DNA from: a virus
Length of the DNA: 35,534 nucleotides
IMG/VR virus record: IMGVR_UViG_3300028909_000048
Span: 1 to 35,534 of that record
Strand: one strand, 5' to 3'
Part shown: in pieces, positions 21,207 to 35,495 of the stretch
Position numbering within the stretch: position 1 is the stretch's first letter
Layout of the letters: each line of letters opens with the position of its first letter
The notes under the pieces: generated by a model
Told to the model about the DNA's origin: nothing
Database searches by the model: none
What the model saw: the letters and a program-made list of their open reading frames with translations, nothing else
Translations under genes and position numbers: made by a program

Positions 21207-21210
21207 TGCT

Positions 21211-21245
21211 AAGTTGCTCCGGGTATAATCAAACATAAGCAACTT
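21211..21245 (+). repeat. 8-bp inverted repeat flanking the promoter box (operator-like)
   Basis: AAGTTGCT (21211-21218) and AGCAACTT (21238-21245) are exact reverse complements and bracket the CCGGGTATAAT box, 19 bases apart. The dyad could be an operator or a hairpin overlapping the transcript start. No similar dyad surrounds the other copies of the box. Confidence 0.5.
21219..21229 (+). promoter_or_regulatory. CCGGGTATAAT promoter box 1 (metallophosphoesterase)
   Basis: Exact copy of the recurring box. The last base is 30 bases before the GTG at 21260. The -10 hexamer TATAAT is perfect and preceded by GGG rather than the TGn of an extended -10. A TTGGTA 18 bases upstream (21200-21205) is a poor -35 that the other copies lack. 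Confidence 0.7.
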
Positions 21246-21259
21246 TGGAGGTAATCTGT

Positions 21260-22603
21260 GTGGGTAAGCCAGTGAAGTCCTCGATTAAAAAGAGCAACAA
21301 AGTAACATCCAAGGTTGCAATCAAAGCTACAAATAAAGAACCAAAGCTAACTCAAGGACAAAGAGCAATGTTAGCTGAGCGTGGAAAGAAGTTCGACCCA
21401 ACAGCGACTAGAGAAGATGTTGTAAACGACCTTAGAAGGCTCCAGTTGGAGAATAACGATACCTTCATGGCTCGAAACTTTTACCGCACCAACGGTAAGT
21501 ATTCTGATAAAACATGGGATCAATATTTCGGTACTATGGAAGAGTTTCGCTCTGGAGCCGGGATTCAATTAAGTCGCAGTCAAAGACAACTTGAAAAACA
21601 TATTGCAAAACACGCCGCTCTGGATGAATCACGAAAGTTCTATAGGCTTGAGATAGAACCGTGGGTGGAGAAATACAACAAAACTATCACGAATGTTGCT
21701 GGTATGAAGAAGATGATCATCGCTTCTGATTTCCACGATATCGATACTGATCTGTTTTGCTTATCTGTTTTTATCGACACGTGCAGAGTTGAGCAACCAG
21801 ATATAATCGTACTAAACGGTGATATATTCGACCTGTATGAATTTTCTCACTTCGATAGAGACCCTCGCAAAATAAAGTTGAGACTACGCATGGAGTTCGT
21901 TAGAGATTGTATCTTGGGTCCGTTGCGTGAAGCTTGTCCGAAGTCTCAAATTGACTTCGTAGTTGGTAACCACGAACATCGTCTTCTGAAGCATATGGCG
22001 TCTAAGACTGAAAACATGGCTGCACTGATGGAACTAATGAATCTGTCTCTGGCAGAGTTGCTAGGGTTAGATAAATTCCAGATTAATCTTGTATCCAAAG
22101 GGAACACAACTGCTTTCAAAGCCAAGGAAATCAAAGACGAAATGGCTAAGAACTTCAAGTTGTATTTCAATTGCTTGGTGTGCAATCACACTGGATATGA
22201 AGATTTTGGCGTGACGACCGTGAGTGGACACCTACACCGTCCGGGCCTTGCAACCGAAGTTCATCTGCTGCAAGGACCGATTAATAAGCTGACTACTGGG
22301 TGTATGTGCAAGTTGGATTCTGACTACACATCTACGAAAACAAACTGGCAAAATTCGTTTGCCATTGCGTACGTCGACGCTATCAACGAAAAGGTACAGC
22401 TCAACCACGTTATGTTCACTGAACCGTTTGTTAATGTGAATGGGAGATTCTACTTCCGTGATATGGAAGCTACCGAAATTAGAGACTCTCAAGACGTTAT
22501 AGACTCTATCAAAAACGCTGAGCTTAGAGGATTCGTACGTGATGATGAATCAACGGCTGTGGTTGCAGGAATGGAAAAGTCTAAGAGAGCTGGAGCGATT
22601 TAA
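21260..22603 (+). CDS. Calcineurin-like metallophosphoesterase
   Basis: GGAGG at 21247-21251 lies eight bases before GTG 21260, a better start than the TTG at 21245, giving 447 residues. All core motifs of metallophosphoesterases are visible: D157-F-H159 (ASDFHD), G187-D188 (LNGDIFD), G236-N-H-E (VGNHEHR) and SGHLHRP near residue 330. These bind two metal ions and hydrolyse phosphoesters; the substrate cannot be told, but phage members are usually DNA nucleases or phosphatases. The first 140 residues are Lys-rich and then helical (KSSIKKSNKVTSKVAIK), and may bind DNA. It is the first gene behind a CCGGGTATAAT box and separate from the SbcD-like gene at 32431. Confidence 0.85.
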   Translation: MGKPVKSSIKKSNKVTSKVAIKATNKEPKLTQGQRAMLAERGKKFDPTATREDVVNDLRRLQLENNDTFMARNFYRTNGKYSDKTWDQYFGTMEEFRSGAGIQLSRSQRQLEKHIAKHAALDESRKFYRLEIEPWVEKYNKTITNVAGMKKMIIASDFHDIDTDLFCLSVFIDTCRVEQPDIIVLNGDIFDLYEFSHFDRDPRKIKLRLRMEFVRDCILGPLREACPKSQIDFVVGNHEHRLLKHMASKTENMAALMELMNLSLAELLGLDKFQINLVSKGNTTAFKAKEIKDEMAKNFKLYFNCLVCNHTGYEDFGVTTVSGHLHRPGLATEVHLLQGPINKLTTGCMCKLDSDYTSTKTNWQNSFAIAYVDAINEKVQLNHVMFTEPFVNVNGRFYFRDMEATEIRDSQDVIDSIKNAELRGFVRDDESTAVVAGMEKSKRAGAI

Positions 22604-22627
22604 TAATCGTGATTAGCAGAAAGTTTG

Positions 22628-22825
22628 ATGATGGAACAGGTAATCCCAGTAACCGAACAATTCAACAAAGTTCATTGCATTAGACATCCGCGTGCTAATT
22701 GGTACGCGGCTCTGTCTAATATCAACGATATTCAATGCGAAGCCTGCCTGATGGGGCTTGAATTCGCAAATGGACGCGATGTAATCGAGGAAAACTATGC
22801 CCAAACAAGTGATACAGATCAATGA
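22628..22825 (+). CDS. Small Cys/His-containing protein of unknown function
   Basis: A 66-residue protein starting at ATG 22628 or 22631; no strong ribosome binding site, and an upstream in-frame TTG is less likely. It has the pattern HCIRHPR ... QCEACLMG, four to five Cys/His residues that could hold one zinc ion. It overlaps the next gene by 29 bases in another frame, and that gene has its own GAGG site inside this one, so the pair is probably translationally coupled. No family recognised. Confidence 0.5.
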   Translation: MMEQVIPVTEQFNKVHCIRHPRANWYAALSNINDIQCEACLMGLEFANGRDVIEENYAQTSDTDQ

Positions 22826-23135
22826 AAGATGCCGTTGTGTATCTAAACAGTATCTAGGCAAGGTTGCTCAATTCTGGACTGGGTTGTGTTCTGCTTGCGG
22901 TTCCATATCAGCCTATCAACTGGAAGATTTCATCGACAATGGTGTAGATGGGAGATACAGCTATCCACTTAATGGAATGGTTGATTATGTCGAGTTGGTA
23001 AACGGAAGCAAGTTCTATTTATATCATCTTTGGGATGAGCCGGTTACAGAAGATGAATACGCAAGAATATTCGGGAAGATTGAAGATTTGTGTGGAAATT
23101 ACAAGATGTATATCAAGAAGATGGCAAAATACTAA
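22797..23135 (+). CDS. Small protein with Cys pairs, unknown function
   Basis: A 112-residue protein with GAGG six bases before its ATG. CRC near residue 12 and CSAC near residue 32 could form a small zinc knuckle, followed by an acidic, aromatic-rich second half (YVELVNGSKFYLYHLWDEP). No family recognised. It sits with other short Cys-rich genes between the metallophosphoesterase and the endonuclease VII-like gene. Its stop is immediately followed by a near-copy of the promoter box. Confidence 0.6.
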   Translation: MPKQVIQINERCRCVSKQYLGKVAQFWTGLCSACGSISAYQLEDFIDNGVDGRYSYPLNGMVDYVELVNGSKFYLYHLWDEPVTEDEYARIFGKIEDLCGNYKMYIKKMAKY

Positions 23136-23146
23136 CCGGGTAGAAT
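23136..23146 (+). promoter_or_regulatory. Near-copy of the promoter box (CCGGGTAGAAT)
   Basis: One mismatch to CCGGGTATAAT. It is directly behind the stop of the preceding gene and 9 bases before ATG 23156, or 18 bases before the in-frame GTG at 23165. The distance to the GTG is the one closer to the other copies. Weaker than the exact copies because the -10 loses a key base. Confidence 0.45.
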
Positions 23147-23155
23147 ATATTGGAG

Positions 23156-23686
23156 ATGCCACACGTGACACGAAGAATAAAACTTGCAAGATGTCATCCA
23201 AGTGAACTAAATCATTATTTTGGGATGTGCAGAGAATGTTGGGAATGGACGCAGAACCTAACTGCTCCATGTACTCATACAGACAGAATAAAAGACAGAT
23301 ATGGAAGATGCTCCAGCTGTATGAGTAGATACTATTATCTAAGAAGAAATAAGAAGATTGGAGACAAGTTTGGAACTATTAGGATATCTAAAGGTGTTCC
23401 TACTGGAAGCGGTCCTGAATATGTAGCTAGAAGCTGGGCAAAGAAGAAACTAGATGAAATGCGCATCAAGCAGAATGAAAAATGTGCTATCTGTGGTTTG
23501 GAAGACTCTATAGGTTTGTGTTTAGATCATGATCATTCTTGTTGTCCTGCTGGTAGAAGTTGCGAAAAGTGCGTCAGAGAGGCGCTCTGCCATGGATGTA
23601 ATATGCGATTAGGGCAGTTGGAGTCTGATTTGGTTCATAGAAGTCTTGAATACATTAAAAAGCATAAGGAAAAACAATATGAATAA
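23156..23686 (+). CDS. Endonuclease VII-like (Holliday junction / HNH-type) nuclease
   Basis: The C-terminal half carries the endonuclease VII signature of T4 gp49: C110-A-I-C113, then LDHDH at 123-127, then C145-H-G-C148-N149 followed by LG. In T4 the four Cys bind zinc, and Asp40, His41 and Asn62 form the active site; equivalents are all present, so the enzyme is probably active. It would cut branched DNA during recombination and packaging. An added N-terminal region of about 90 residues has two further Cys pairs (MCREC, CSSC), perhaps a second zinc finger. TTG at 23150 is an unlikely start. ATG 23156 has no spaced ribosome site; GTG 23165 has TTGGAG nine bases upstream and may be the true start. 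Confidence 0.8.
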   Translation: MPHVTRRIKLARCHPSELNHYFGMCRECWEWTQNLTAPCTHTDRIKDRYGRCSSCMSRYYYLRRNKKIGDKFGTIRISKGVPTGSGPEYVARSWAKKKLDEMRIKQNEKCAICGLEDSIGLCLDHDHSCCPAGRSCEKCVREALCHGCNMRLGQLESDLVHRSLEYIKKHKEKQYE

Positions 23687-24089
23687 AGATAATGGAGCAG
23701 TTTCGAAAGCAGATTCGACCAACCCTAAAGACATTTTAGGTTTTAAGAAGGTTCCGATGGGAGCTGTATCTCCAGCCGCTATCGCTCATGAAGCTTGTGC
23801 GATGCTTGATGGAGAAATAAAATATGGGTTTAGAAATTGGCGCGCGAAAGATGTTCGTGCTAGGGTTTATATCGATGCCTGTAAGCGTCACTTAGACGGA
23901 TGGCTTGAAGGCGACGAAGTAGCTGAAGATTCTGGTGTTCACCATCTCGGACACGCAAGAGCTTGCTTAGGTATTCTTCTAGACGCACAGGAAAGCGGTA
24001 ATTTGATTGATGATCGCGTCAAAGGACCATTTGCTAAAGTGTCTAAGAGATTAAGCGAATGGGTTAAGAATCGGATGGAAAGACAGTAG
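23679..24089 (+). CDS. dATP/dGTP diphosphohydrolase-like protein (MazZ-type, N-terminal domain family)
   Basis: A 136-residue protein from ATG 23679, eight bases after AAGGA, overlapping the previous stop by 8 bases. It has the shape of the phage dATP/dGTP diphosphohydrolase N-terminal family: an opening NPKDILGFKKVPMGAVSP, then ALA/HEA helices, KYGFRNWR, VYIDACKRHLDGWLEGDE, and DSGVHHLGHARACLGILLDA. The His/Asp/Glu-rich helices are expected to bind metal and nucleotide. The family includes MazZ, which in 2-aminoadenine phages removes dATP and supplies dGMP. The partner PurZ is not in this window, so a role in base replacement is open; general dNTP pool control is also possible. Confidence 0.7.
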   Translation: MNKDNGAVSKADSTNPKDILGFKKVPMGAVSPAAIAHEACAMLDGEIKYGFRNWRAKDVRARVYIDACKRHLDGWLEGDEVAEDSGVHHLGHARACLGILLDAQESGNLIDDRVKGPFAKVSKRLSEWVKNRMERQ

Positions 24090-24092
24090 CCA

Positions 24093-24833
24093 ATGACTCA
24101 AGAAACATATAACGATGATTGTGTGAACGTGCTACCAACGATTCAAGATTGTTCTGTGGATGGGATTATGACCGACCCTCCATTTAACATAAACCTTGTT
24201 CCTCAGCGAAAAACGCATGACATCATAGCTAACGACAATATTGCTCCGGAAGAATTCAAGCAATGGCTTAGTTCAGTGATACATCATTGCTATCGGGTAC
24301 TAAAACATAACAAGGTTGCATGGTTTTGCTGCAATTGGCAATGTTCTCATGTGTTTCATGAAGTATTGACAGATGTCGGGTTCGAAATCGTTAATCAGGT
24401 AGTCTGGGCTAAGACAAATTTTGGCATAGGTTACCAATTTCGCCCCCAACACGAGTACATATGGGTGGTAAGTAAAGGTGAACCAAATCTGCTTCTTGAA
24501 GCTGCCCCCAGCAACGTGTGGAACATCGCCAGACACATCAACACGTTGCACCCTACCGAGAAGCCTATCGAACTGGTACGGAAGGCACTGAGCCAATATA
24601 ACAAGGAAGGCGACGTAATCCTTGACCCATTTGCAGGCTCGTTTAGTACGTGTATGGGAGCGAAATCATTGGGTATGGGGTATATTGGCGTTGAAATAGA
24701 CCCTATTCATTACGAAACAGGCACCCAAAGGCTTGATGGTTGTGGCATAATCGAAAAAACCAATAAAAAAGGAAAACTAGTGACTCGAGTTGAGGGGGCA
24801 CCTCTTATGGATTGGGTTGACGCTAATGAGTAA
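24093..24833 (+). CDS. DNA methyltransferase (N6-adenine or N4-cytosine, beta type)
   Basis: A 246-residue protein with the catalytic motif IV D28-P-P-F31 near the N-terminus and the S-adenosylmethionine site DPFAGSFST (178-186) near the C-terminus, followed by GYIGVEIDPIHYE. This IV-before-I order is that of the beta group of amino-methyltransferases. HPTEKP at 153-158 is the usual element before motif I. The binding loop reads FAGSFST rather than the common FxGSGTT, a change at one Gly. No restriction partner is near, so it is a solitary enzyme, likely protecting phage DNA from host restriction or marking it. Confidence 0.85.
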   Translation: MTQETYNDDCVNVLPTIQDCSVDGIMTDPPFNINLVPQRKTHDIIANDNIAPEEFKQWLSSVIHHCYRVLKHNKVAWFCCNWQCSHVFHEVLTDVGFEIVNQVVWAKTNFGIGYQFRPQHEYIWVVSKGEPNLLLEAAPSNVWNIARHINTLHPTEKPIELVRKALSQYNKEGDVILDPFAGSFSTCMGAKSLGMGYIGVEIDPIHYETGTQRLDGCGIIEKTNKKGKLVTRVEGAPLMDWVDANE

Positions 24834-25062
24834 ATTGAGCGACGATTTGACGACTGAATTCAGAAAGTTCAGACATAACTACGAATTGTTCCGTACGTAT
24901 GGAAAGAAATACAATAAAATTGAATCTATTAACGCTTTGTGGAGAATATCACTACAAGCGAAAGCTCTGATGGACGAAATCAAAAAAGAGTCAAAGGCTA
25001 TTAAGAAGGTTAAAGATTTTGCCGTGATAGACGAGCTTTTGCACATAAAGAAAAAAGGTTGA
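24826..25062 (+). CDS. Small basic helical protein of unknown function
   Basis: ATG 24826 overlaps the end of the methyltransferase as ATGAGTAA, a coupled arrangement; TTG 24790 upstream is unlikely. The 78-residue product is Lys-rich and mostly helical (TEFRKFRHNYELFRTYGKKY, then KESKAIKKVKD). It ends 3 bases before the DNA polymerase gene. It might bind DNA or the polymerase, but no family is recognised. Confidence 0.6.
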   Translation: MSKLSDDLTTEFRKFRHNYELFRTYGKKYNKIESINALWRISLQAKALMDEIKKESKAIKKVKDFAVIDELLHIKKKG

Positions 25063-25065
25063 GTA

Positions 25066-27864
25066 ATGAGCGATAGTAATGAAAACTTGGTTCATCTCCA
25101 TGCACATTCTGAATATTCACAGCTTGATGCTGTTGGCACCGTGGAACACGTTGTTGCACAAGCTAAGAAAAAGGGATTTAAGGCGCTGGCGCAGACTGAT
25201 CATGGTACGGTCAGTGGTGGGCTTAAGTTCGCTAGAGAATGTAAGAAGAATGGCATAAAACCAATTTTAGGGTGCGAAATTTATATAGTGGATGATGTGC
25301 TGTATCGCAAGCCTGAAAATGTCAAGAAAGAACGTGAAGACTTATATCATACTATCGTTCTGGCTAAGAGCTGGGACGGGTTTGTGTCGCTCCAAAAGCT
25401 TCTTACAAAGGCTTATTCAAAGGATGGTTTCTACTACAAGCCTCGTGTTGGGTGGAATGACACTCTCGCTCTGAAAGATTGTGTAATATCTACGGCTTGT
25501 GTTGGTGGGATGCTTTCACATGATGATTATGTGAAGAAAGCTGAGATGTTTAATGAAACATTCAAGGAAGATTTCTACTTCGAAGTTCAACCTCACCAAT
25601 TCGACCTCCAATACAATACGAACATGAAAGCACTGCAACTGGCGAATAGATTCGGCAGGAAGCTTATTGCCACGAATGATTTTCACTACGCTAACGCTGA
25701 AGATTGTCACGCTCAAGAGTGTTTGTTAGCTACGGCTCGGAAGCAAACTAAATCAAGCGATAATAAGTGGGATTTTACGCCGGGTTTGTGGATGAAGACT
25801 TACCCAGAGATGATAGATTCGTTTCTCGGAATGCAAAAGAGTGTTTTGTCGTCTCAGTTGGTAAATGCAGCTGTTCTAAACACAGTTGAGGTTGCCGAGA
25901 AGTGTAATTGGTCTTTGCCAAATTTTGAAGTAGAACTACCGAACGTAAATACGACTTCTTTGGGAACAAGCGACCAAGTACAAGCATTGAAGATTTTGTG
26001 TGTTCAGGGGTGGAAGAAACGCTTTCCTGATATGGCATTTACCAGCGAAAAAGGGAAGCCATATTGGGAAAGGTTGACAAAGGAATTAGATACAGTTATA
26101 AAGCTGAATTTTGAAAAGTATTTTCTATTAGTGCAAGACATTTATCGATATTGTGATTCTGTTGGTATCGCCTATGGTCCGGGGCGTGGTTCTGGTGCTG
26201 GTTCACTGGTGTGTTATTTACTGGGCATTACAAACGCCGATCCACTTACCTATGGACTCATTTTTGAACGTTTCATAAACCCTGAGCGTATCGACCTTCC
26301 CGACCTCGACCTAGATTTCGAACACGATAGGCGTGATGAAGTTTATCAGTATTTATTGCAGACCTATAAGCATGTAGCTCACATAGCCACGTTCAACGGT
26401 ATGAACACCAAACAGGTTTTGAAAGATGTTTGCCGTTATGAAGAGATAGACTTAAAAGTAGTTGATGTTGTGTGCAAAGAGATAGATGAAAAAACAGCCA
26501 AACAAGACAAGGCTAAACTAACATTGCAAAAAGTCGAAGATGAGCCTGAAAAATACCCGCAATATGCTGCTTTTAAGGAAAAAAACTTCTCTATTTTGGA
26601 AGTTGCTAAAGTTCTCGAAGGACAAGTTAGACAAACTGGTATCCATCCTGGTGGTGTGATTGTTAGCTCTGAACCTCTAGAGAACCGTGTTGCTGTTGAA
26701 TATAGAAAAGGCGAATACACCATCAACTACGATATGTATGATGTCGGGTTCTTAGGGCTTCTAAAAGTAGATGTGTTGGGTTCTAAGACCGTTTCAGTAC
26801 TCGAATACACTAAGAAAATGATTGAGGAAACATCTGGTAAAGAACTAGATTTTCAGAAGATAGATTTGGAAGATAAGCCAACACTCATGCAGTTCAATAT
26901 GGGTCAAACTACTGGAGTGTTTCAGTTTGAGTCACCGGGTATGAGAAAAATGCTTCGTGAAATGGCACCACACGACATCAACACGCTAATTACAGCTAAT
27001 GCAATGTATCGCCCGGGTCCATTGCAGTTTAAGGATACTTACGTAAAGAACAAAAAAACTCCAAATTTGATAAAGTCTACTGGAAATGCTGCTTTGGATA
27101 AAATCACTCGAGATACATACGGAGTGTTCATCTATCAGGAACAGGTGATGCAGATAGCTGTAGAAGTGGCAGGATATACATATCCTGAATCTGATACACT
27201 TCGTAAAAAGATTTCTAAATCTAAGGGCAAGGAAGAAATCGAGAAAGATCGTTTGAAATTTGTGGAAGGATGCATAAGCTTTGGAAAACTTTCAGATGCC
27301 GCTGCTAACGAACTGTTCAGCGAAATTGTTGATTTCGGAAGATATTGTTTCAATAAATCGCACGCTACGACTTACACTCTTGTTAGTTACTACGCCATGT
27401 GGCTTAGAACCCATTTTCCATGTGAATTTCTATCGGCACAGATAGCCCATTCCAAGGATGAAGACAGACCAGACCTCCGTAAGGAAGTTGGGAGAGAGGA
27501 TGTCCAATACCTTCCAACGTGTATCAATCGGTCTCATAAATTGTGCAGTGTTGAAATTCTACCGAATGGAAAAAAGGCTCTTAGAGCTGGATTTAATGAG
27601 ATTTCAGGAATCGGTGATGCTGTTATAGACGCTGTATTGAAAACCAGAGGTGAAGTTCAATTTCTTAGTTTCGATGACTTCTTCAACAGACTGGAAAATA
27701 GGCGAGTGGTGAACATAAAGGCACAAGAGATTTTATTATCCTGTGGAGCATTTGCCTCGATGCATGATATGAAAGCAGCTAAAGCGATTTGTATCAGTCT
27801 GAGACAAGGTTTGTCGAAGAAGGGTGGGCCACCGGCTCAAGTACTGGAGGGAAAGTTATGGTGA
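25066..27864 (+). CDS. dnaE: DNA polymerase III alpha-type replicative polymerase (C-family, PHP domain)
   Basis: A 932-residue C-family polymerase, shorter than E. coli DnaE (about 1160), mainly by lack of the C-terminal OB and tau-binding region. The PHP domain opens with VHLHAHSEYS (H12, H14) and continues with TDHGTVSGG and NDFHYANAEDCH; its metal-binding residues look intact, so proofreading by the PHP domain is possible. The palm has GPGRGSGAGSLVCYLLGIT and then LPDLDLDF with D413 and D415, and the third aspartate is D569 in LLKVDVLGSK. The helix-hairpin-helix part is AGFNEISGIGDAVIDAVL near residue 845. I see no clear beta-clamp motif in the last 60 residues. It lies beside SSB and recombinase genes, which fits the phage's main replicase. 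Confidence 0.95.
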   Translation: MSDSNENLVHLHAHSEYSQLDAVGTVEHVVAQAKKKGFKALAQTDHGTVSGGLKFARECKKNGIKPILGCEIYIVDDVLYRKPENVKKEREDLYHTIVLAKSWDGFVSLQKLLTKAYSKDGFYYKPRVGWNDTLALKDCVISTACVGGMLSHDDYVKKAEMFNETFKEDFYFEVQPHQFDLQYNTNMKALQLANRFGRKLIATNDFHYANAEDCHAQECLLATARKQTKSSDNKWDFTPGLWMKTYPEMIDSFLGMQKSVLSSQLVNAAVLNTVEVAEKCNWSLPNFEVELPNVNTTSLGTSDQVQALKILCVQGWKKRFPDMAFTSEKGKPYWERLTKELDTVIKLNFEKYFLLVQDIYRYCDSVGIAYGPGRGSGAGSLVCYLLGITNADPLTYGLIFERFINPERIDLPDLDLDFEHDRRDEVYQYLLQTYKHVAHIATFNGMNTKQVLKDVCRYEEIDLKVVDVVCKEIDEKTAKQDKAKLTLQKVEDEPEKYPQYAAFKEKNFSILEVAKVLEGQVRQTGIHPGGVIVSSEPLENRVAVEYRKGEYTINYDMYDVGFLGLLKVDVLGSKTVSVLEYTKKMIEETSGKELDFQKIDLEDKPTLMQFNMGQTTGVFQFESPGMRKMLREMAPHDINTLITANAMYRPGPLQFKDTYVKNKKTPNLIKSTGNAALDKITRDTYGVFIYQEQVMQIAVEVAGYTYPESDTLRKKISKSKGKEEIEKDRLKFVEGCISFGKLSDAAANELFSEIVDFGRYCFNKSHATTYTLVSYYAMWLRTHFPCEFLSAQIAHSKDEDRPDLRKEVGREDVQYLPTCINRSHKLCSVEILPNGKKALRAGFNEISGIGDAVIDAVLKTRGEVQFLSFDDFFNRLENRRVVNIKAQEILLSCGAFASMHDMKAAKAICISLRQGLSKKGGPPAQVLEGKLW

Positions 27865-28466
27865 CTGATGGCCTATGCCCAATCGTTACGAGAGATGGTG
27901 TTGGGACGATTATTACATTGCAAGGTCGAGATGTTTTGACAGAGGGTTTAGAATTCCACAAAATGGAAATTAGACGAGACGAAGCTTTAAAGGGTGAACA
28001 ATGGATGATCAGAGTTGATGCTGTTCCAACTCCTGATAGGATTAGAAACAGCAGTATAAAGATATATTTAACTAGCGATGCATTATTAAAAACGCCGGAC
28101 GGTTGGAGACACCCTGAAGAATTGAAGCACGGCAATTTGGTAAAGGCGTATTTCATTCACTGCCTTGTTTGTCAGAAACTTTATCTTCCATCAAGACCTA
28201 TCATATCTACATGCGGCGAAAAATGTTTAAGCGCTGCTAAAAATGCAGAATTGTTCATTTTTAAACCACTTAATCAACAAAGTGTATATGCAGCGTTGGA
28301 AGAGAAGTGGGCATATATTACGTCATCATCTGACAAATTAAATGTTCAACCGGGCATGGAAGTTGTAAGGGTAAATAAAATCGAGAACGCTTGTAGTGTT
28401 TATTGTGGTGGGGTTCTTCTCAGTACAGACTCTTTGCAAGCCGGGTATAATTCACCAACGGAGTAA
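27858..28466 (+). CDS. Cys-rich protein of unknown function, weakly Hint-like
   Basis: GGAGG at 27846-27850 lies seven bases before ATG 27858, which overlaps the polymerase end as ATGGTGA; the open frame from further upstream is not used. The 202-residue protein has a central CLVCQK ... CGEKC pattern that could hold one zinc ion, as in short Cys-rich fingers of phage proteins. Around it, TSDALLKTPDGWRHPEELKHG resembles the middle of Hint (intein or hedgehog) domains (HxLLTPDGWxxAxxLxxGD), and the end, VYCGGVLLSTDSLQ, recalls their last strands but lacks the His-Asn splice pair. No self-splicing flanks are seen. It is coupled to DNA polymerase and precedes a recombination block, which suggests a replication accessory. 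Confidence 0.55.
   Translation: MVTDGLCPIVTRDGVGTIITLQGRDVLTEGLEFHKMEIRRDEALKGEQWMIRVDAVPTPDRIRNSSIKIYLTSDALLKTPDGWRHPEELKHGNLVKAYFIHCLVCQKLYLPSRPIISTCGEKCLSAAKNAELFIFKPLNQQSVYAALEEKWAYITSSSDKLNVQPGMEVVRVNKIENACSVYCGGVLLSTDSLQAGYNSPTE
28441..28451 (+). promoter_or_regulatory. CCGGGTATAAT promoter box 2 (recombination genes)
   Basis: Exact copy of the box, inside the last codons of the previous gene and 19 bases before ATG 28471. A ribosome site (CGGAG) lies between. It would start a transcript of the candidate mediator, SSB and recombinase genes. Confidence 0.7.
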
Positions 28467-28470
28467 TCAC

Positions 28471-28950
28471 ATGGCTTTTGACCGTGATTTAGGTAGTTTA
28501 ACCATCATGCTAAACGGCAAGGAAGAATTTCTTGACCCTGCCACTGACCTCTATATTGAAGAGGGAGCACTTAACACAGAGTTTTGCGAACAAGCATCGA
28601 AATTTGCGTTTTATGGCGGAATTCATTCTGATTGTTACATAGAGCTTGAATCGCGCAAACGTGCTTTATCGTCTTACGAGGCTGAAATCGAACTCGACAT
28701 TCGACAGAAGGTCTCTGAAAATCTTGGACAAAGTGAACGTATGTCTGAAGCCAAGATTGAAGCTGCACTAAAGCGTGAACCTAAATGGCAGGAAATTAGT
28801 AGCTCTGTGCTACAAATGCAAGCCATCGTTGGTAAACTGGATGTGTGGAAAGACGCTTTTAAGCAACGTTCCCAGATGTTATTTAATTTGGGTGCTACGA
28901 AACGTCAAGAAATGATGCGACTGACACCAAATACTCACGACGAGGAATAA
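28471..28950 (+). CDS. Candidate recombination mediator (UvsY-like by shape and position)
   Basis: ATG 28471 follows CGGAG by seven bases; an in-frame codon upstream at 28396 is not needed. The 159-residue protein is mostly charged helix. Its second half (QAIVGKLDVWKDAFKQRSQMLF, split by Lys/Arg pairs and ending in TKRQEMM) resembles the helical region of UvsY and similar mediators, which load recombinase on SSB-coated DNA. The neighbour order mediator, gp32-like SSB, UvsX supports this. No enzymatic motif is present and similarity is only in shape, so treat as a candidate. SSB starts six bases after its stop. Confidence 0.45.
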   Translation: MAFDRDLGSLTIMLNGKEEFLDPATDLYIEEGALNTEFCEQASKFAFYGGIHSDCYIELESRKRALSSYEAEIELDIRQKVSENLGQSERMSEAKIEAALKREPKWQEISSSVLQMQAIVGKLDVWKDAFKQRSQMLFNLGATKRQEMMRLTPNTHDEE

Positions 28951-28956
28951 ATTACT

Positions 28957-30207
28957 ATGACTGACACTTATCAATTCGATCCGAATGATCCGTATGCGTT
29001 AGATACAGATCAGATTCAGAAAGACGCTGCAAAGAAGGGTGGGCTAAAAGTCACTTATCACAACATTCCAGATGGCGAAACAACTTCTACGTGGCGCATT
29101 TTACCTTGGACTAAACGTCGTACTTTCTTCCGCAAGATTATGAAACATTGGAATGTTCCGGGATATAAAGGCGCTGTTACATGCCCTAAGTCTTTCTTCG
29201 AGGAGGAAGGCTCTGACGTGAAGTTTCCGTGTGCATTGTGTGACGAGAGTTACAAGCTCAATAAGTCGAAAGACCCGGTTGATTCAGCTCTTGCAAAAAC
29301 CCTACGCTCCACTAGCAACTACTACGTCAATGCATTCAATGTTGATGACCCTGAGAAGACTGTTGGTGTACTCAACATCCCTTATGCAGTTTATAAGCAG
29401 CTTTTTGATTGGCTTTCGATTGCAGGATATTCTGATTTTACGCATCCATTTAGGGGACGTAATGTATCTATTAAGAGCACTATTGTGGAGGGTGCGAAAG
29501 TTCCAGGTACATCAAACAAGAACAAACGTGACTTCACAATCACGGCTTCGTTGCAAGTTGCACCTATCGATGAAGCAATCATGGAGAAGATTTGGGATTT
29601 GGATTCCATTATGGGAATTCCAACGCTCGAGTTCACTCAGGCTTGTTTACAGAGGGTGGTTACTGGAGATGAAACAGCTGGAAAAGAGCTTGTGCATGGT
29701 ACTGGATATCGCCAACTAACGGATGGTTCTGAGAATTCAGAATTCTTCCCAGGTGTAAACACGGATGATAGCTCGGCCCCACCTCAGACAGCTCCACCTA
29801 CGACCACCCACACGACTGTAAATACAGCTCCACCTACGACCACCCACACGACTGTAAATACAGCTCCAACAAATGCATCGGTTAGTTCTCCAGTTCAGGC
29901 AGCGGTTAATGTTGGCTCACCTAAACCAGCTTTCGCATCGGTAGCAACTACATCAGCTATAGTTGGAACACAGCCACCAGTTAAGGTTGTTCCAGTGGCT
30001 GATTTAGTTAACGGAACTAAGCCTTGTTTTGGGATTGCTTTTGATGGCGATGCCAAGATTTGCCTGAAGTGTCCATTGGTTGATGATTGTGAAGTGGCTG
30101 TTTTAAAAGCTGCTCGTGTTGCAAAGAACAATCCTCCGGCTGCCACACCAGTGGCTGACGAAGGCGACCTAGCTGCGCAGATGATGGCAGCACTTGGAAG
30201 TAAATAA
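28957..30207 (+). CDS. gp32-like single-stranded DNA-binding protein with long C-terminal tail
   Basis: A 416-residue protein. Residues 1-260 follow the gp32 pattern: TWRILPWTKR, then FRKIMKHW, a Zn site and a beta-barrel. The zinc ligands appear to be H64, C76, C92 and C95, in step with T4 gp32 (H64, C77, C87, C90). From about residue 275 comes a Pro/Thr-rich linker with two exact 12-residue repeats, then a Pro/Val/Ala-rich stretch. Near the C-terminus, CFGIAFDGDAKICLKCPLVDDC has four Cys in a pattern of the kind seen in other phage and plasmid proteins; it may bind a metal. The usual acidic C-terminus is weak (ADEGDLAAQMMAALGSK). It would cover exposed strands during replication and recombination. 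GAGGA precedes the start. Confidence 0.8.
   Translation: MTDTYQFDPNDPYALDTDQIQKDAAKKGGLKVTYHNIPDGETTSTWRILPWTKRRTFFRKIMKHWNVPGYKGAVTCPKSFFEEEGSDVKFPCALCDESYKLNKSKDPVDSALAKTLRSTSNYYVNAFNVDDPEKTVGVLNIPYAVYKQLFDWLSIAGYSDFTHPFRGRNVSIKSTIVEGAKVPGTSNKNKRDFTITASLQVAPIDEAIMEKIWDLDSIMGIPTLEFTQACLQRVVTGDETAGKELVHGTGYRQLTDGSENSEFFPGVNTDDSSAPPQTAPPTTTHTTVNTAPPTTTHTTVNTAPTNASVSSPVQAAVNVGSPKPAFASVATTSAIVGTQPPVKVVPVADLVNGTKPCFGIAFDGDAKICLKCPLVDDCEVAVLKAARVAKNNPPAATPVADEGDLAAQMMAALGSK
29788..29868 (+). repeat. Two exact 36-bp direct repeats in the SSB linker
   Basis: The unit beginning ACAGCTCCACCTACGACC (29788-29823) is repeated base for base at 29824-29859, and its first nine bases appear once more at 29860-29868. 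It encodes APPTTTHTTVNT twice. Identity at synonymous sites points to a recent duplication. Confidence 0.9.
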
Positions 30208-30209
30208 CT

Positions 30210-31469
30210 ATGGCACTCCCTAAAGCAAAAAAGCCAGTCGCTAAGATTCCGGCGATGGTTCTTGAAAAGGGTAAGACCGATGCAGGGGATATCGTCAAGG
30301 TATTCAACAAAGCCTATGGCGTTAATTCCCTGCAAGTTCTTAACCTAGACGACAACTCTAAGCCTAGATATTGGGTTTCTACTGGTTCTTTCGAACTAAA
30401 CAATGCCATAACCAAAGCCGGATGGGGTGTTCCTTTCGGAAAAATCGTTACAATTACAGGCAAGAAGAGCAGCGGCAAGACTACTATCGCTCAACAGATT
30501 GTAGCCGAGGCTCAAAAGGGTGTTCTAGATGTTGAAACGTCGACTAAAGTCGATGCAGATACGTTTTGGTTGGATGCTGAAATTGCATTTGACCAAGATA
30601 GAGCTGTAGCTATCGGCGTAGACCCCAATCGCATGATGATTGGTCAACCTGATTATCTTGAACAGGTATTTGAAAAGCTGGAAAGCATCATTGAGATTGC
30701 TGAACAGACGAAGCGTCCCACTGTTGTTGTGTGGGATTCTGTAGCCGCATCACCAACTCAAAAGGAACTGGAAGGTGATAAGGGTGAGGGTGGTCATTAT
30801 GGTGAACACTCTAAACTGCTATCTCAATGGTTCCGTAAGATTGCCAAACGCTTGGGGAAGACTAATATCTTGTTCTTCATCATTAATCAAGTAAAAGTCA
30901 ATATCAATGCAATGTATGACAAGGATACTTACATTGGTAAGAACGCTCTTGATTTCCATTCTCACTTGATGATGACTATTTATCAATCTGGGAAGGTTGA
31001 AGAAGATGATACTGAAATAGGCATCGCATCAACCATAGAGATTACCAAGAATCGCCTTTGGAAGCCTTTTGAAGAACGTATTCTTCATATCATGTTCGGC
31101 GATGATAAGTATAAATCTGGATGTGATGTAAATTGGGAAGCGTTGGAAATTGGAAAGCGTAACCTTCGTGCAAGACTTAATGGGTCGTGGAACCAAATTA
31201 TTGAACCATGTTCTGATTGCCTTGTACCTAACGAAAATACTGAATTGGTAGAAAAGGGTGCTGAACCAGCTATGATTCCTTCTGGAAAAGGACCGGACGG
31301 TAAGACATGCCCTACTTGTGAGGGTACTTATTATCGCCAGATAGAAGGATTCAAGCAGTTCTACGCTAGGGACATCCAATACAAAATTGAAGATACTCCG
31401 GGGTTATTGGATTATTTGGTTAATGGAACACCGATGCCTGCACTAGAACCAAAAACAAAGAAAGCGTAA
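30210..31469 (+). CDS. uvsX: RecA/UvsX-like recombinase with C-terminal zinc-ribbon insertion
   Basis: A 419-residue ATPase starting two bases after the SSB gene. Walker A is GKKSSGKT (84-91) and Walker B ends at D176 (PTVVVWDS). RecA-type features follow: the pre-nucleotide segment (GGHYGEHSKLLSQWFRKIAKRL) and a conserved INQVKVNINAMYD loop. It would form filaments on single-stranded DNA and drive strand exchange, working with the gp32-like SSB and possibly the protein at 28471. Near the C-terminus, C334-SD-C337 and C367-PT-C370, 29 residues apart, form an apparent zinc ribbon that RecA and T4 UvsX lack. The last 25 residues are flexible and basic. I call it UvsX-like because of the phage context; RecA-like is equally valid. 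Confidence 0.85.
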   Translation: MALPKAKKPVAKIPAMVLEKGKTDAGDIVKVFNKAYGVNSLQVLNLDDNSKPRYWVSTGSFELNNAITKAGWGVPFGKIVTITGKKSSGKTTIAQQIVAEAQKGVLDVETSTKVDADTFWLDAEIAFDQDRAVAIGVDPNRMMIGQPDYLEQVFEKLESIIEIAEQTKRPTVVVWDSVAASPTQKELEGDKGEGGHYGEHSKLLSQWFRKIAKRLGKTNILFFIINQVKVNINAMYDKDTYIGKNALDFHSHLMMTIYQSGKVEEDDTEIGIASTIEITKNRLWKPFEERILHIMFGDDKYKSGCDVNWEALEIGKRNLRARLNGSWNQIIEPCSDCLVPNENTELVEKGAEPAMIPSGKGPDGKTCPTCEGTYYRQIEGFKQFYARDIQYKIEDTPGLLDYLVNGTPMPALEPKTKKA

Positions 31470-31474
31470 TGGTT

Positions 31475-31515
31475 GTGGTATGTCAGATAAATGTAGCAAT
31501 TATCTGACATACCAC
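31475..31515. terminator. Perfect 16-bp hairpin between convergent genes (likely bidirectional terminator)
   Basis: GTGGTATGTCAGATAA (31475-31490) and TTATCTGACATACCAC (31500-31515) are exact reverse complements with a nine-base loop. It lies six bases after the recombinase stop and between two genes that converge. There is no strong T-run on either side, so it is not a textbook intrinsic terminator; it may also protect or process the mRNA 3' end. Confidence 0.6.
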
Positions 31516-31524
31516 GCTGTTTAT

Positions 31525-31686
31525 CTATAGTAAATGCTTAACTTTGTTGTATTTACGCTCTAAATAAACCGTGGCATCATCGTAAAGATAGTGAGCGATA
31601 CGAGCAATTTGTTTGTGTCCGCCATAGGTTACAGCTCCTATGTTTGGACTATCTTTATGACGTATGCTGAATTTTGTTTTATCTAA
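31525..31686 (-). pseudogene. Detached C-terminal part of homing endonuclease (other frame)
   Basis: In the -strand frame one base away from the main endonuclease gene, the DNA reads on from TTA (Leu, 31684-31686) through LDKTKFSIRHKDS, then GGHKQIARIAHYLYDDATVY and LERKYNKVKHLL to a TAG at 31525-31527. The stretch has the standard end of phage and intron LAGLIDADG endonucleases (YLYxDATxYLERKY). It has no start of its own. It is the natural C-terminus of the gene at 31679-32329, lost by a one-base shift in an A5 run (31685-31689 on +). Confidence 0.75.
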
Positions 31687-32329
31687 AAAGACACTCCTTC
31701 ATCAAGATTTCTTGTATGCTCGTGATTATTTTTGTATTTGAAGTTATGGAAAAAGAAATATTGTCGTGATTTGACTTATTAGCTGTGAAGCATCCATCTC
31801 CATCGAAATATCCGCGGATGAAATGTCTGATTATATGTTGTGGAATGGATGGAAATTCCATTGTAAATGTTTTGTTTTGAATAACCCCATGTACGGCAAG
31901 AGCTGAAGTTAAGAAATCGGAATAGATGTGTAATCGAGCAGTTCCTCCATATTTGGTTATAGTGTGGTCACTCCCCAACGCATTCTTCAACAGCTGAATA
32001 TGGTGTTCGTCTTTATCAGACAATGTTATTCCGAGTATTCTTTTGGAGTTTCTTTTTGGAGCTGGACGGATATACCCATCTGCCGAGATGAAACCAAGCC
32101 AATAAGCTTTACTTTCAGAGTCTATGCTGTCGAAGAAATGCTCATTACATTTGAATTTCAAATTAAGTTCTTGATGAGTTCTTCGATCAACATTTTCTCT
32201 TTTTAAGATGTAAATTATAGTTACCTTCGATATCCCAAGTTCATCTCCTATTTTGATTGATGATTTTCCGTCTTTGTACATTTGTTTTATTTGGTCTACT
32301 ACGTCTTCGCTATATTTTCTTGGATGCAT
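31679..32329 (-). CDS. LAGLIDADG homing endonuclease, truncated by frameshift
   Basis: The only minus-strand gene in the window. Residues 7-50 form a helix-turn-helix that may bind DNA (YSEDVVDQIKQMYKDGKSSI, then IGDELGISKVTIIYILKREN). Two LAGLIDADG helices follow: LGFISADGY at 77-85 and IRGYFDGDG at 171-179, each with the acidic residue needed for cutting. The frame ends early at residue 216 (KECLFR), while the missing 53-residue end continues in the next frame, so the present protein lacks its C-terminal strand and helix. It is not within an intron or intein as far as can be seen: the flanking recombinase and SbcD genes are intact, so it is a free-standing endonuclease. ATG 32329 is the start; its own promoter is not clear. 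Confidence 0.8.
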   Translation of the reverse strand: MHPRKYSEDVVDQIKQMYKDGKSSIKIGDELGISKVTIIYILKRENVDRRTHQELNLKFKCNEHFFDSIDSESKAYWLGFISADGYIRPAPKRNSKRILGITLSDKDEHHIQLLKNALGSDHTITKYGGTARLHIYSDFLTSALAVHGVIQNKTFTMEFPSIPQHIIRHFIRGYFDGDGCFTANKSNHDNISFSITSNTKIITSIQEILMKECLFR

Positions 32330-32393
32330 ATAATTTTCTCTGTATATTTAACCTCACACAAATGCATGAACATAACAATGAAATTGTGCGGAA

Positions 32394-32404
32394 CCGGGTA
32401 TAAT
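32394..32404 (+). promoter_or_regulatory. CCGGGTATAAT promoter box 3 (SbcD-like gene)
   Basis: Exact copy of the box, 26 bases before ATG 32431, inside the 101-base gap behind the start of the homing endonuclease. It restarts + strand transcription downstream of the minus-strand insertion. Confidence 0.7.
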
Positions 32405-32430
32405 TAAAAGAAGTTAAACAGGTGTTGTAT

Positions 32431-33525
32431 ATGAGAATGGTTGTTTTTAGTGACGCTCAGTATCACGATTACAAATTATTTTCTGAAAATGGCGCTAATG
32501 GCATTAGTTCCAGACTCCAAGATCAGATTGATGTTCTTAATCAAATCAGTGATTACGCCGTTAAGAATAAAATTGGTAGGATTCTGTTCGTGGGAGATTT
32601 TTTAGATCAAAGACAGCGTGGTGATTTTATCACGATAAAAACCGCCTCTGACTGGATTAATAAAGTATCCAATGCAGGAATTATTCAACATTTCGTGGTC
32701 GGTAATCATGATCAGATCGCTAAACACGGAACTCACAGCTCGCTAGATTTGTTCGAGCACATCCCTAATGTACATGTGATTGCTACCCCTCAGTGGGTTG
32801 ATTTAGGGGAAGGTTGTGGCTTTTTGGCAGTTCCGTACATGAATAGGCTAGAAGAAGTGTTGGCGGGGCTTCAAGTCCAAATGCCAAGCACTATAAAGAA
32901 GGCTATTGCCGTCATTCACTATGGATTATTCGATGTCAGCGACGGGTACAGAACTATCGTTAAGTATCAAGGCTACGAGTCTGAAGGACAAGTGAAATTA
33001 TCAGATTTGGACAGCATTTTGACCGAGGTTAGCCACGTATTGCTAGGTCACTACCACATGCCAACAAGTGTGACTGATAGAGTTCATTTTGTAGGTACTC
33101 CAATACAACACAACTTTGGTGAAGCAAGCTATAAGACCCGATTCTTAGATGTGGATTTGGATACTGGAAAGATTATTGTAGTGCCCACAAAAGCCCCAAA
33201 GTTCGTGCAGTTTGAATCGCCAGCAGAAATCGGGGATGGTTCTAAAGCTAAGGGTAATTTCGTTCGCGTAGACGTTCACACTCAGGATGAAAAACTGGAA
33301 GTTGAAGCGAAGTTGGACGCTATTGGAGTTCGTGGAAGACAAGCCATACTCAAGCCGAAGGTTAAAGCGGCTGAGAACAGGTTGGGTTTAGACCTTGGTA
33401 TGAGTTATGAAGAAATGGGTATGAAGTTGGTTGATGCCGATACAGAAACCACCTTAGACAAGAAACGCTTAAAAAACATGCTGGTTGAGGTTTTCAAGGA
33501 AGCCCAACAGAAAAAGGATATTTAA
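32431..33525 (+). CDS. sbcD: SbcD / Mre11 / T4 gp47-like nuclease subunit
   Basis: A 364-residue metallophosphoesterase of the SbcD type; ATG 32431 follows AGG by eight bases, and the upstream GTG at 32422 overlaps that site. Motifs in order: D8-A-Q10 (FSDAQYHD), V54-G-D (GDFLDQ), G91-N-H-D, H163 (VIHYG) and G206-H-Y-H209. The first motif is normally D-x-H in SbcD and Mre11; here the His position is Gln, with H12 two residues later. The C-terminal 120 residues form the capping region and end in a helical, charged tail that could join an SbcC/gp46 partner. That partner is not in this window. With SSB and recombinase it would process DNA ends for recombination-dependent replication. Confidence 0.85.
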   Translation: MRMVVFSDAQYHDYKLFSENGANGISSRLQDQIDVLNQISDYAVKNKIGRILFVGDFLDQRQRGDFITIKTASDWINKVSNAGIIQHFVVGNHDQIAKHGTHSSLDLFEHIPNVHVIATPQWVDLGEGCGFLAVPYMNRLEEVLAGLQVQMPSTIKKAIAVIHYGLFDVSDGYRTIVKYQGYESEGQVKLSDLDSILTEVSHVLLGHYHMPTSVTDRVHFVGTPIQHNFGEASYKTRFLDVDLDTGKIIVVPTKAPKFVQFESPAEIGDGSKAKGNFVRVDVHTQDEKLEVEAKLDAIGVRGRQAILKPKVKAAENRLGLDLGMSYEEMGMKLVDADTETTLDKKRLKNMLVEVFKEAQQKKDI

Positions 33526-33526
33526 T

Positions 33527-33937
33527 ATGTACATAAACGACGCCGACAATACTCAAAAATATAATGATGAAGTATCTGCAACAACAGCTATAGGAAACCG
33601 CATCGTTGATGAAACGATTGATAATTTGAAGGCTGGTGAGAGTGATAAATCATTTATAAAACCGCTTTCATTCGGAACCAAGTACGAAATTTCCAAGGTT
33701 CTAGACGAGATTGATGCAGAAGCAATTAGAGCAACCACTCTCCACGGCTCTATGAAGTCTCTTCATGAAGCTAAAGCAGTAATTGAAGAAGAATTTGACG
33801 AGTTTTGGGATGCGGTCAAATTGAACCCAAAGAAAATGACGCCGGATGAAGTTGCGGCATGGAGTAAGAACATACATGAAGAACTTGTGCAGATTGCAGC
33901 TATGTGTGTTAAGACGATTGTAAATTTGAATCTATAG
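33527..33937 (+). CDS. MazG-like / all-alpha NTP-PPase-related protein
   Basis: AAAGGA precedes ATG 33527, which follows the SbcD-like stop by one base; the frame that opens inside the previous gene is not used. The 136-residue protein has HGSMKSLHEAKAVIEEEFDEFWDAVK at about residues 63-89, then IHEELVQIAAMCVKTIVNL at the C-terminus. Helices with an EExxE pattern followed by an Asp/Glu and an Ala-Ala-Met helix are typical of MazG-like nucleotide pyrophosphohydrolases, which need four acidic residues to bind magnesium. The second pair of acidic residues (E-x2-D) is not clear, so it may be a divergent or inactive member. Confidence 0.55.
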   Translation: MYINDADNTQKYNDEVSATTAIGNRIVDETIDNLKAGESDKSFIKPLSFGTKYEISKVLDEIDAEAIRATTLHGSMKSLHEAKAVIEEEFDEFWDAVKLNPKKMTPDEVAAWSKNIHEELVQIAAMCVKTIVNLNL

Positions 33938-33945
33938 GAGTGGTG

Positions 33946-34206
33946 ATGGATATTGATGTTAGACCTGTTGTAGCTGAATTTGCACTTGCGATGGAAGCTA
34001 AGTTACGTAAAAACGATCATAAACCAGGGTGGCAGAATGATACCGCTGCTGATTTGCTAGTTCGTTTGGAAGAGGAAGAGGAAGAGCTTTACGATGCTGT
34101 TCATGACGAAACAGCAGACAATACTGAGGTCATGGATGAAGCTACCGACGTAGCAAATTTTTCTTTGATGGTTTGGGATGCTGCAAGGAACTATCGTATT
34201 TCGTAA
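33946..34206 (+). CDS. MazG-like nucleotide pyrophosphohydrolase
   Basis: TAGGAG lies five bases before ATG 33946; the two GTG codons just upstream are less well spaced. The 86-residue protein has NDHKPGWQND, then LLVRLEEEEEELYDAV, and EVMDEATDVANFSLMVWD. The EExxE helix and the ExxDxAN helix are the two halves of the MazG magnesium site, here complete. Such enzymes release pyrophosphate from NTPs or dNTPs and in phages may lower host alarmone levels or remove unwanted nucleotides. It stands next to the other MazG-like gene, 8 bases apart. Confidence 0.7.
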   Translation: MDIDVRPVVAEFALAMEAKLRKNDHKPGWQNDTAADLLVRLEEEEEELYDAVHDETADNTEVMDEATDVANFSLMVWDAARNYRIS

Positions 34207-34207
34207 T

Positions 34208-34218
34208 CCGGGTATAAT
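34208..34218 (+). promoter_or_regulatory. CCGGGTATAAT promoter box 4 (second methyltransferase)
   Basis: Exact copy of the box in the 32-base gap between the MazG-like gene and the methyltransferase, 20 bases before ATG 34239. AAAGGA lies between box and start. Confidence 0.7.
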
Positions 34219-34238: not shown

Positions 34239-35495
34239 ATGCTAAAGTTCATTAAACACAATTCACTACACCCATTTCCGCTTGAAAAAGATAGTATCGA
34301 CGCTGTTATTACATCTCCCCCATATTTTAATTTGAGAACATATCAAGGTGATCCTGATATGATTGGGATGGAAAAAACTCTCGGTGAATATATCGAGCAC
34401 ATCGTCGCTGTCGCCAAGAACATTAAGGGAGTGCTTAAGCCAGAAGGCAGCTTCATGCTTAATCTTGGTGATAGCTACTTTGATAAGTGTCTATCTCTAG
34501 TCCCTCATAGGGTTGCTATCGCTTTGATTTCCGATGGGTGGATTCTTAGAAACACCATTGTGTGGCATAAACCAAACCCAACACCTAGTTCTGTTAAAGA
34601 CCGTTTGAACACATCACACGAATATATTTTTCATTTCGTGTTGAATCAGAAATACTACTACAACCTTGATGCAATTAGGGTTGCACACCAAACCATCAAT
34701 ATAACCAAAAACATGAGCAATCCTAACTTGGTTAACAAGATTAATGGGTTGAAGATCGAAGTAGCTAAGGAAGTTGGTTCGCTGTTCGAAGAATCAGCTG
34801 AACTTGATAAGGAAACAAACGAGTATAAAACTGGATACAAGAATTCGAAATTACAAGGTGAAACTGATAAAAACATTGGTGCTCGTGGTGGTTTTGCTGT
34901 TACAGGTGAAACACTGGAGAATAGATATCATGATGGTGGGAAGAATCCAAATGATGTCTTTGTCGATGAAGGAAAGTTCACTTTAGAAGATGAATTGCAG
35001 GCCGAGCGTGATGGATATTCTCGTCACGCTGCAGCTAGAGTGTTGGGAAGGCTTCGTAAAGGTCTAGCAACCAATCACCCATTAGGAAAAAATCCAGCAG
35101 ATGTGTTTATGTCTAATTCCACGACGGAGAATTCTCAAAGAAAGTCGCCAGACGAAGTCTTGTTGGATTTAGAAACCGAATGTCCTGATTGTGGCCTGCA
35201 ATTCCGTACTGATTTGGAAAACTTCTTCGAGAACCCCGGCGATGTTTGGATGGTTAACACTGAATCATCCAAGATCAAACATTGTGCCATGTGGCCTACG
35301 AAGTTGGTTAAGCGAATGATTCTGGCTACTGTTCCTGTAGGCGGCACTGTACTTGATATTTTCTCAGGTTCTGGAACTACAGCGATTATGGCTGAAAAGC
35401 TTGAACGTAACGGGGTTGGGTTTGATATTGGATATGATGAAGCCAGAGAGCAAAGAATAGCTAAAGGTATTCAGAATGAACTCATCATCGAGTAG
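34239..35495 (+). CDS. DNA methyltransferase (beta type) with repeated NPxDV segments
   Basis: A 418-residue enzyme with S26-P-P-Y29 (motif IV) near the N-terminus and FSGSGTT (about 374-380) with the following GVGFDIG as the S-adenosylmethionine site. S-P-P-Y is most usual for N4-cytosine enzymes, but N6-adenine cannot be excluded. The middle (residues about 160-330) is an unusually long target region. It contains NPNDVF (236-241), NPADVF (285-290), SPDEVL (303-308) and the standard NPGDVW (332-337), so one motif seems to occur four times. A Cys pair (CPDC) just before the last copy may bind zinc. No restriction enzyme is nearby. It has its own promoter box. Confidence 0.85.
   Translation: MLKFIKHNSLHPFPLEKDSIDAVITSPPYFNLRTYQGDPDMIGMEKTLGEYIEHIVAVAKNIKGVLKPEGSFMLNLGDSYFDKCLSLVPHRVAIALISDGWILRNTIVWHKPNPTPSSVKDRLNTSHEYIFHFVLNQKYYYNLDAIRVAHQTINITKNMSNPNLVNKINGLKIEVAKEVGSLFEESAELDKETNEYKTGYKNSKLQGETDKNIGARGGFAVTGETLENRYHDGGKNPNDVFVDEGKFTLEDELQAERDGYSRHAAARVLGRLRKGLATNHPLGKNPADVFMSNSTTENSQRKSPDEVLLDLETECPDCGLQFRTDLENFFENPGDVWMVNTESSKIKHCAMWPTKLVKRMILATVPVGGTVLDIFSGSGTTAIMAEKLERNGVGFDIGYDEAREQRIAKGIQNELIIE

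Follow-up and report, generated by a model that had tools for sequence, protein, structure and literature searches.

What is the function of an 11-base sequence that recurs shortly before start codons in the genome of a virus? The sequence, CCGGGTATAAT (hereafter, the box), is found in the IMG/VR virus record IMGVR_UViG_3300028909_000048, whose positions 1 to 35,534 are the window, the whole stretch of DNA analyzed here (35,534 nucleotides (nt)). Four exact copies, all on the plus strand, and a one-mismatch copy, CCGGGTAGAAT, are present in the window (Table 1). The original prediction, made from the sequence, placed them 9 to 30 nt before start codons, and this was confirmed. It also stated that chance would give well under one copy. 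Indeed, the expected number of exact copies is 0.01, and none of 100 dinucleotide shuffles reaches four. The virion genes of the window, which were said to be free of the box, contain no exact copy, and one single-mismatch copy, CCGGGTATATT at 7099 (+), sits among them. When up to two mismatches are allowed, there are 11 hits in the window against 7.2 expected, and 8 of 100 shuffles reach 11. Because the excess vanishes at two mismatches, loose matching is uninformative and only exact or near-exact sites are meaningful. It is probable that the box represents a dedicated promoter class of this phage for non-structural genes, lacking a -35 element and having a -10 element extended by CCGGG.

The window belongs to a tailed myophage. 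The proteins of the virus include an SU10-like capsid protein, a DnaE-type polymerase, a DnaB-like helicase, a UvsX-like recombinase, and, by reading of the sequence, a large-terminase-like protein; a tail sheath domain scored just below the Pfam cut-off. The search with DnaE revealed contigs of the same virus, including G002 (IMGVR_UViG_3300028766_000004, 88,968 bp), whose reverse strand (G002rc) covers positions 1-32376 of the window at 99.97% identity (9 differences). The search with the terminase revealed G010 (IMGVR_UViG_3300028854_000024, 59,198 bp), which is 99.8% identical over the 11.9 kb compared and reaches 14.1 kb further. The joined sequence is 106,273 bases in length with an open gap after the end of the window, as no contig bridging the window's end and G010 was found. 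A third contig, G001, keeps the window sites that it covers unchanged (two exact copies and the 23136 variant). DnaE matches were present in 1,359 GenBank phage records, all of them below 60% identity (30.8%-33.7% among the 30 matches listed), and positions 20000-35534 of the window have no megablast match in GenBank phage sequences. In the search for the host, there was no terminase relative among genome contigs and no genome sharing a 36-base stretch of the phage tRNA-Ser.

In the joined sequence, the box is the most over-represented 11-mer, with 7 exact copies versus 0.028 expected. The 9-mers are topped by CCGGGTATA (12 copies versus 0.31 expected). This excess, together with the association with gene starts and strand, rules out a chance repeat. 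Six of the seven exact boxes are outside called genes, with intergenic DNA making up 12.8% of the joined sequence. The seventh is contained in the 3' end of a gene, with 19 nt between it and the following gene. The original prediction proposed a genome-wide search with one mismatch relative to gene starts. With five starts added by eye, all seven exact copies are at most 80 nt upstream of a gene start on the same strand; this 80-nt zone accounts for 4.25% of oriented positions (one start was entered as 32432 for 32431). Fifty 11-mers occur four or more times; the highest-scoring of those that do not overlap the box has one of its four copies in the zone. Among the 3,068 9-mers with at least 5 copies, the box 9-mer ranks first, with 10 of 12 copies in the zone; a Shine-Dalgarno word has 4 of 5.

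The location of all copies on the plus strand, as originally observed, is true in the window but has little meaning there, where nearly all genes are on the plus strand. The two exact boxes in G010 are informative. They are on the minus strand and precede minus-strand genes, for a DprA-like protein and a lipoprotein-like open reading frame (ORF), the latter identified by eye and cut by the contig end. Therefore, the strand bias is not a mere echo of one-way genes. Genes behind boxes outside the window also include a helicase, with a variant box 73 nt upstream, and small genes of unknown function. None of the seven exact boxes is in the late block with the virion genes (G002rc 8563-77142; 69 kb, 64.5% of the sequence), giving a p of 0.0007 for a block that includes a few non-virion genes and whose limits were drawn after the sites were seen.

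Conservation among the seven exact sites ends at the 11 bases on both flanks. There are no upstream or downstream words common to the sites beyond random sets, and no shared -35 hexamer; the sole candidate, a weak TTGGTA at 18 bp, belongs to the 21219 site. As originally described, no -35 is shared at 16-18 bases and CCGGG occupies the place of TGn: TG at the extended -10 position is seen at none of the seven sites, CCGGG before TATAAT at all of them. These sites show no dyad symmetry. No RNA fold is shared, one of the five window sites folding better than shuffles, and there is no Rfam match in the window. TATAAT occurs 59 times in the joined sequence, 7 times right after CCGGG and never after a CCGGG with one base changed.

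There are seven one-mismatch copies in the joined sequence, four of which are intergenic and on the gene strand (CCGGGTAGAAT, CCGGGTATATT twice, and CCGGGTATACT). All four keep CCGGG, and their changes are confined to position 3 or 5 of the hexamer (TAGAAT, TATATT twice, and TATACT). Positions 3 and 5 belong to those at which -10 elements tolerate change. Judging from the letters, the variants thus look like those of a -10 element read by a sigma factor. The base 7 nt past the box is A in five and G in one of the seven exact sites. A purine in six of seven sites is compatible with a transcript start and weakly supports it, positions 3 and 9 being equally A-rich. Canonical sigma70 promoters are scarce. 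There are 6 sites in 106 kb (at least 11/12 matches, or 10/12 with TGn), of which 1 is intergenic, and in positions 18000-35534 of the window looser sigma70 matches are fewer than in shuffles (29 versus 43.4).

Several observations weigh against a dedicated promoter class. With automatic starts, the distance to a start is at most 60 nt for just three of the seven boxes; for the remaining four, starts had to be assigned by eye. The simple gene caller chose late starts for some genes, and the count was six of seven once two minus-strand starts had been set manually and a number of probably spurious minus-strand ORFs removed. The remaining three one-mismatch copies are inside genes, and one of these is on the opposite strand. 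Only 6-9 nt separate the boxes at 23136, G010 2915, and G010 4432 from the start codon; with a transcript start 7 nt past the box, the mRNA would be nearly leaderless. As a class, the box is absent from a terminase relative (G011, 42% identity) and from a DnaE relative (G003, 37%), and the searches made found no relatives between about 42% identity and near-identity. Sigma-70 region 2 (PF04542) had no match in G002, and sigma-70 region 4 (PF04545) none in the window by itself (G000), G002, or G010, in a genome that is incomplete and with phage sigma factors that diverge. The T7-type RNA polymerase family (PF00940) had no match in the same three sequences, and the same search was positive in another contig, G023. 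The large proteins of unknown function that were scanned had no polymerase match either.

Taken as a sequence pattern, the boxes constitute a real, lineage-specific, promoter-like class without a -35 element, for which the following mechanism is plausible. TATAAT would be the -10 element, as its sequence, position, and tolerance pattern suggest. CCGGG, directly upstream at the extended -10 place, would be read base by base and replace the -35 element; this role is inferred from its all-or-none conservation and the absence of any other shared flank. The boxes would start transcription of genes for metallophosphoesterases, recombination and repair nucleases, the helicase, the DprA-like protein, a methyltransferase, and small proteins of unknown function. 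The class is likely to be early or middle, because boxes are absent from the late block. Since neither a sigma factor nor a T7-type polymerase was detected, host RNA polymerase is the most likely enzyme.

The least certain step is whether a phage protein reads CCGGG or alters the sigma factor, which, given the rest, seems about equally likely to be true or false. The five fixed bases beside the -10 exceed the demands of the usual extended -10, and it is for this reason that a phage helper is kept at that level once a dedicated class is granted. The narrower proposal, that CCGGG is read by an unrecognised phage protein other than a known sigma factor, enabling host RNA polymerase to initiate at a bare -10, is tentative and somewhat doubtful. 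If true, it would mean a one-piece promoter code for the replication and repair programme, with some transcripts nearly leaderless. Two regulator candidates near the box pair G002rc 7545/8159 were too weak to claim: an FmdB-like zinc ribbon below the Pfam cut-off, and an 83-residue helical protein (alignment-free fold; predicted local distance difference test, pLDDT, 65). Of the originally proposed promoter class, the recurring, start-associated, -35-less boxes before non-structural genes are well supported in the extended genome, whereas the phage factor is something we infer.

The box letters are also seen in other contigs. Within matched stretches, to which this comparison applies, a second copy is present in 2 of 94 for the box (one being this phage) and in 3 of 102 for a control word; whole-contig counts were made for the box contigs and not for the control contigs. 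Whole-contig searches of 50 box contigs gave a single copy in 46 and 2-6 copies in the other four. Because a second copy is no commoner than for the control, the multi-copy hits are in themselves no proof of function. The four contigs differ from one another: G051 (IMGVR_UViG_3300033076_001576) has dyads, G022 has long near-identical repeats, G023 (IMGVR_UViG_3300030098_001484) has a longer element, and G062 has a GTTTAC block upstream. Hence, the same 11 letters exist in quite different contexts, and the class reported for this phage is specific to it. As a candidate for a general viral promoter word, the pattern CCGGGTATAATN{4,30}GGAGN{4,10}ATG was rejected, as it was found in 95 viral-contig stretches versus 102 for the control GGCCGTATAAT.

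The same data bear on whether the boxes are ordinary host promoters, read by the main or an alternative sigma factor of the host as a G-rich extended -10 shared with its own genes. Such a reading fits the perfect -10 and the lack of a detected phage sigma factor or polymerase. The -10 elements of the sigma-B/SigF type are GGGTAT, and in G062 both box copies are preceded by a GTTTAC block, 13 bases ahead of GGGTAT, a sigma-B-like spacing by eye. However, the sites of this phage share no -35, GTTT or other, all five bases of CCGGG are fixed, beyond the usual need of an extended -10, and across viruses the box precedes genes no more often than the control of the same composition. Host promoters are therefore considered unlikely. 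A promoter of a phage-encoded RNA polymerase, unrecognised or in the missing piece of the genome, is quite improbable. G023 carries the same letters within a longer shared element, CTATAACCGGGTATAATAGTATA (two sites), and has T7-type polymerase matches, but the family matched there is unmatched in the sequences of this phage, 11 bases are conserved rather than about 20, and the scan of large proteins was negative.

The box could also be an asymmetric operator or stoperator, at which a phage repressor blocks initiation or elongation and TATAAT is part of an overlapped promoter. Stoperators are likewise asymmetric, located in short intergenic spaces and aligned with the direction of transcription (PMC9283540), and the same 11-mer forms palindromic sites in G051, a contig that at E 1e-4 has no protein in common with this phage. 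The sites of this phage are not dyads, the scan of proteins, which covered part of the genes, recognised neither a repressor nor an integrase, and the tolerance at -10 positions 3 and 5 fits a sigma factor; an operator is improbable on these grounds. Action of the box in RNA, as a start-associated signal of translation or processing, is the reading to which we give hardly any weight. Closeness to start codons recalls the start-associated sequences of mycobacteriophages (PMC3203893). Against it, the box stands anywhere from 6 to 38 nt from the start, with the helicase variant at 73 nt, there is neither a common RNA fold nor an Rfam match in the window, and the letters make a perfect -10.

A dedicated promoter class would have partial counterparts among known systems. 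In bacterial extended -10 promoters, an upstream extension of the -10 hexamer can replace the -35. The box is likewise extended upstream, but by the five fixed bases CCGGG and not by TGn. It matches a sigma70-type promoter in its -10 hexamer with loose positions 3-5 and does not match it in the -35 TTGACA at 16-18 bp. T4 late promoters, TATAAATA, have no -35 and serve virion genes through gp55/gp33/gp45. They are similar in being a -10-only phage class for one gene set, but the box class has CCGGG and is absent from the virion block. The phages phiEco32 and 7-11 encode a sigma factor, and their promoter motifs are TAATGTATA and TGATGT (PMC4331800). These are short phage-specific intergenic motifs of extended -10 size, in classes tied to temporal gene groups, as the box is limited to one gene class; unlike them, the box combines CCGGG with a canonical TATAAT, and no sigma factor was detected. 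Because no phage sigma factor was found, membership in this kind is not claimed.

The Cluster K start-associated sequences, 5'-GGGATAGGAGCCC, are located immediately upstream of the start (PMC3203893). They are similarly asymmetric, repeated near gene starts, and mostly in one orientation, but their letters differ from the box, whose distance to the start is variable and which contains a -10. L5-type stoperators are 13-mers bound by the immunity repressor (PMC9283540). They share with the box the asymmetry and the orientation with transcription in short intergenic spaces; the box differs from them in containing a -10 and in that no repressor was recognised among the proteins scanned. Literature searches with CCGGGTATAAT, or with GGGTATAAT plus "phage" and "promoter", yielded nothing on a phage promoter, judging from titles and the beginnings of abstracts. 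The kind, phage-specific short promoters, is already known, and the CCGGG-TATAAT variant without a detected phage sigma factor appears to be new.

The original prediction also held that the boxes split the region into transcription units, an idea that gained little support. Among the five window boxes, three begin 0, 1, or 12 bases past a stop codon and one is inside the end of the upstream gene. The terminator scan of positions 18000-35534 gave 8 candidates versus 11.6 in shuffles, and a weak one (34141-34154) precedes the 34208 box. As most boxes adjoin stops or an upstream gene end and terminator candidates are few, they may be internal promoters.

If the promoter reading is right, an undescribed myophage lineage has an 11-base code that marks where transcription of its non-structural genes begins, and this code gives a sharp handle for finding its reader. 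It would also be a case of five fixed G/C bases beside the -10 replacing the -35, which bears on how phages retarget host RNA polymerase. The combination of k-mer over-representation with association with starts and strand can be used to detect classes of this kind in raw metagenomic phage sequences.

Table 1. Boxes and adjacent genes in the window and in the contigs joined to it.
Feature	Sequence	Position	Strand	Remarks
Exact box CCGGGTATAAT	window	21219..21229	+	30 nt upstream of GTG 21260
Metallophosphoesterase gene	window	21260..22603	+	PHROG 20266, E 4.6e-56 on longer frame 21245-22603; start set by eye
Variant box CCGGGTAGAAT	window	23136..23146	+	directly 3' of the stop codon of the preceding gene; 9 nt before ATG 23156
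Endonuclease VII-like gene	window	23156..23686	+	Pfam PF02945, E 1.1e-11 (frame 23150-23686); PHROG 2633, E 3e-15
Exact box	window	28441..28451	+	inside the 3'-terminal 26 nt of the preceding ORF (stop 28466); 19 nt before ATG 28471
Gene of unknown function	window	28471..28950	+	PHROG 1069/2058; precedes SSB-like gene
Exact box	window	32394..32404	+	26 nt before ATG 32431; 17 nt before alternative GTG 32422
SbcD-like nuclease subunit gene	window	32431..33525	+	PHROG 100, E 1.5e-46; no Pfam match at E 0.01
Exact box	window	34208..34218	+	one base past the previous stop codon; 20 nt before ATG 34239
DNA methyltransferase gene	window	34239..35495	+	Pfam PF01555, E 2.2e-44; PHROG 67
Exact box	G002rc	7545		
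Exact box	G010	290	-	
Exact box	G010	2915	-	

The 21219 box is flanked by an 8-bp inverted repeat, AAGTTGCT/AGCAACTT (window 21211-21245). Two of the nine differences between the window and G002 (21210 and 21246) fall just outside its arms. The TTG at 21245, upstream of the metallophosphoesterase start, is TCG in the second strain owing to the single-nucleotide polymorphism at 21246. A gene for a LAGLIDADG homing endonuclease (PF14528; 31679-32329, minus strand) is located between the recombinase gene and the 32394 box. The window holds two separate N6/N4 DNA methyltransferase genes (24093-24833 and 34239-35495), and the linker of the SSB-like protein is encoded by a tandem repeat with a 36-base step (29788-29868; two 45-base cross hits). 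In G010, a long inverted repeat lies between two minus-strand genes (stretch L053:2044-2091), and each of its arms holds a two-mismatch box, ACGGGTATTAT; it is a candidate terminator or operator.

The other contigs show arrangements of their own. G051, a phage contig of 61% G+C content, has six palindromic sites in which CCGGGTATAAT faces its reverse complement. The arms are a few bases apart, one arm has one mismatch, and the sites are operator-like in appearance. G023 has one protein hit to this phage (30% identity) and T7-type RNA polymerase matches at two places. Its three exact boxes and one one-mismatch copy are in a longer element (ATAA before, AGTATA after), which is possibly the promoter of the T7-type polymerase of that phage. 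In G022 (L110:13138-14247, minus strand), three long near-identical repeats each contain a box, and two carry a palindrome-like core, CTTATTCTACCCGGGTATAATAA. A similar site is present in stretch L067, with TTGACA 17 bp before TATAAT.

In the DnaE relative G003 (IMGVR_UViG_3300009506_000013; L157:2705-10315, minus strand), 15 Twister-P5 self-cleaving ribozymes (RF02684) are present in about 8 kb. A literature search, judged by title, gave no paper on such an array of Twister-P5 in phage gene leaders. Fourteen of the 15 are over the gathering score, and one is at 37.4 versus 37.6. Thirteen are directly before a ribosome site and ATG, and their hairpin arms are varied but still matching, suggesting an array of phage genes whose leaders carry their own ribozymes.

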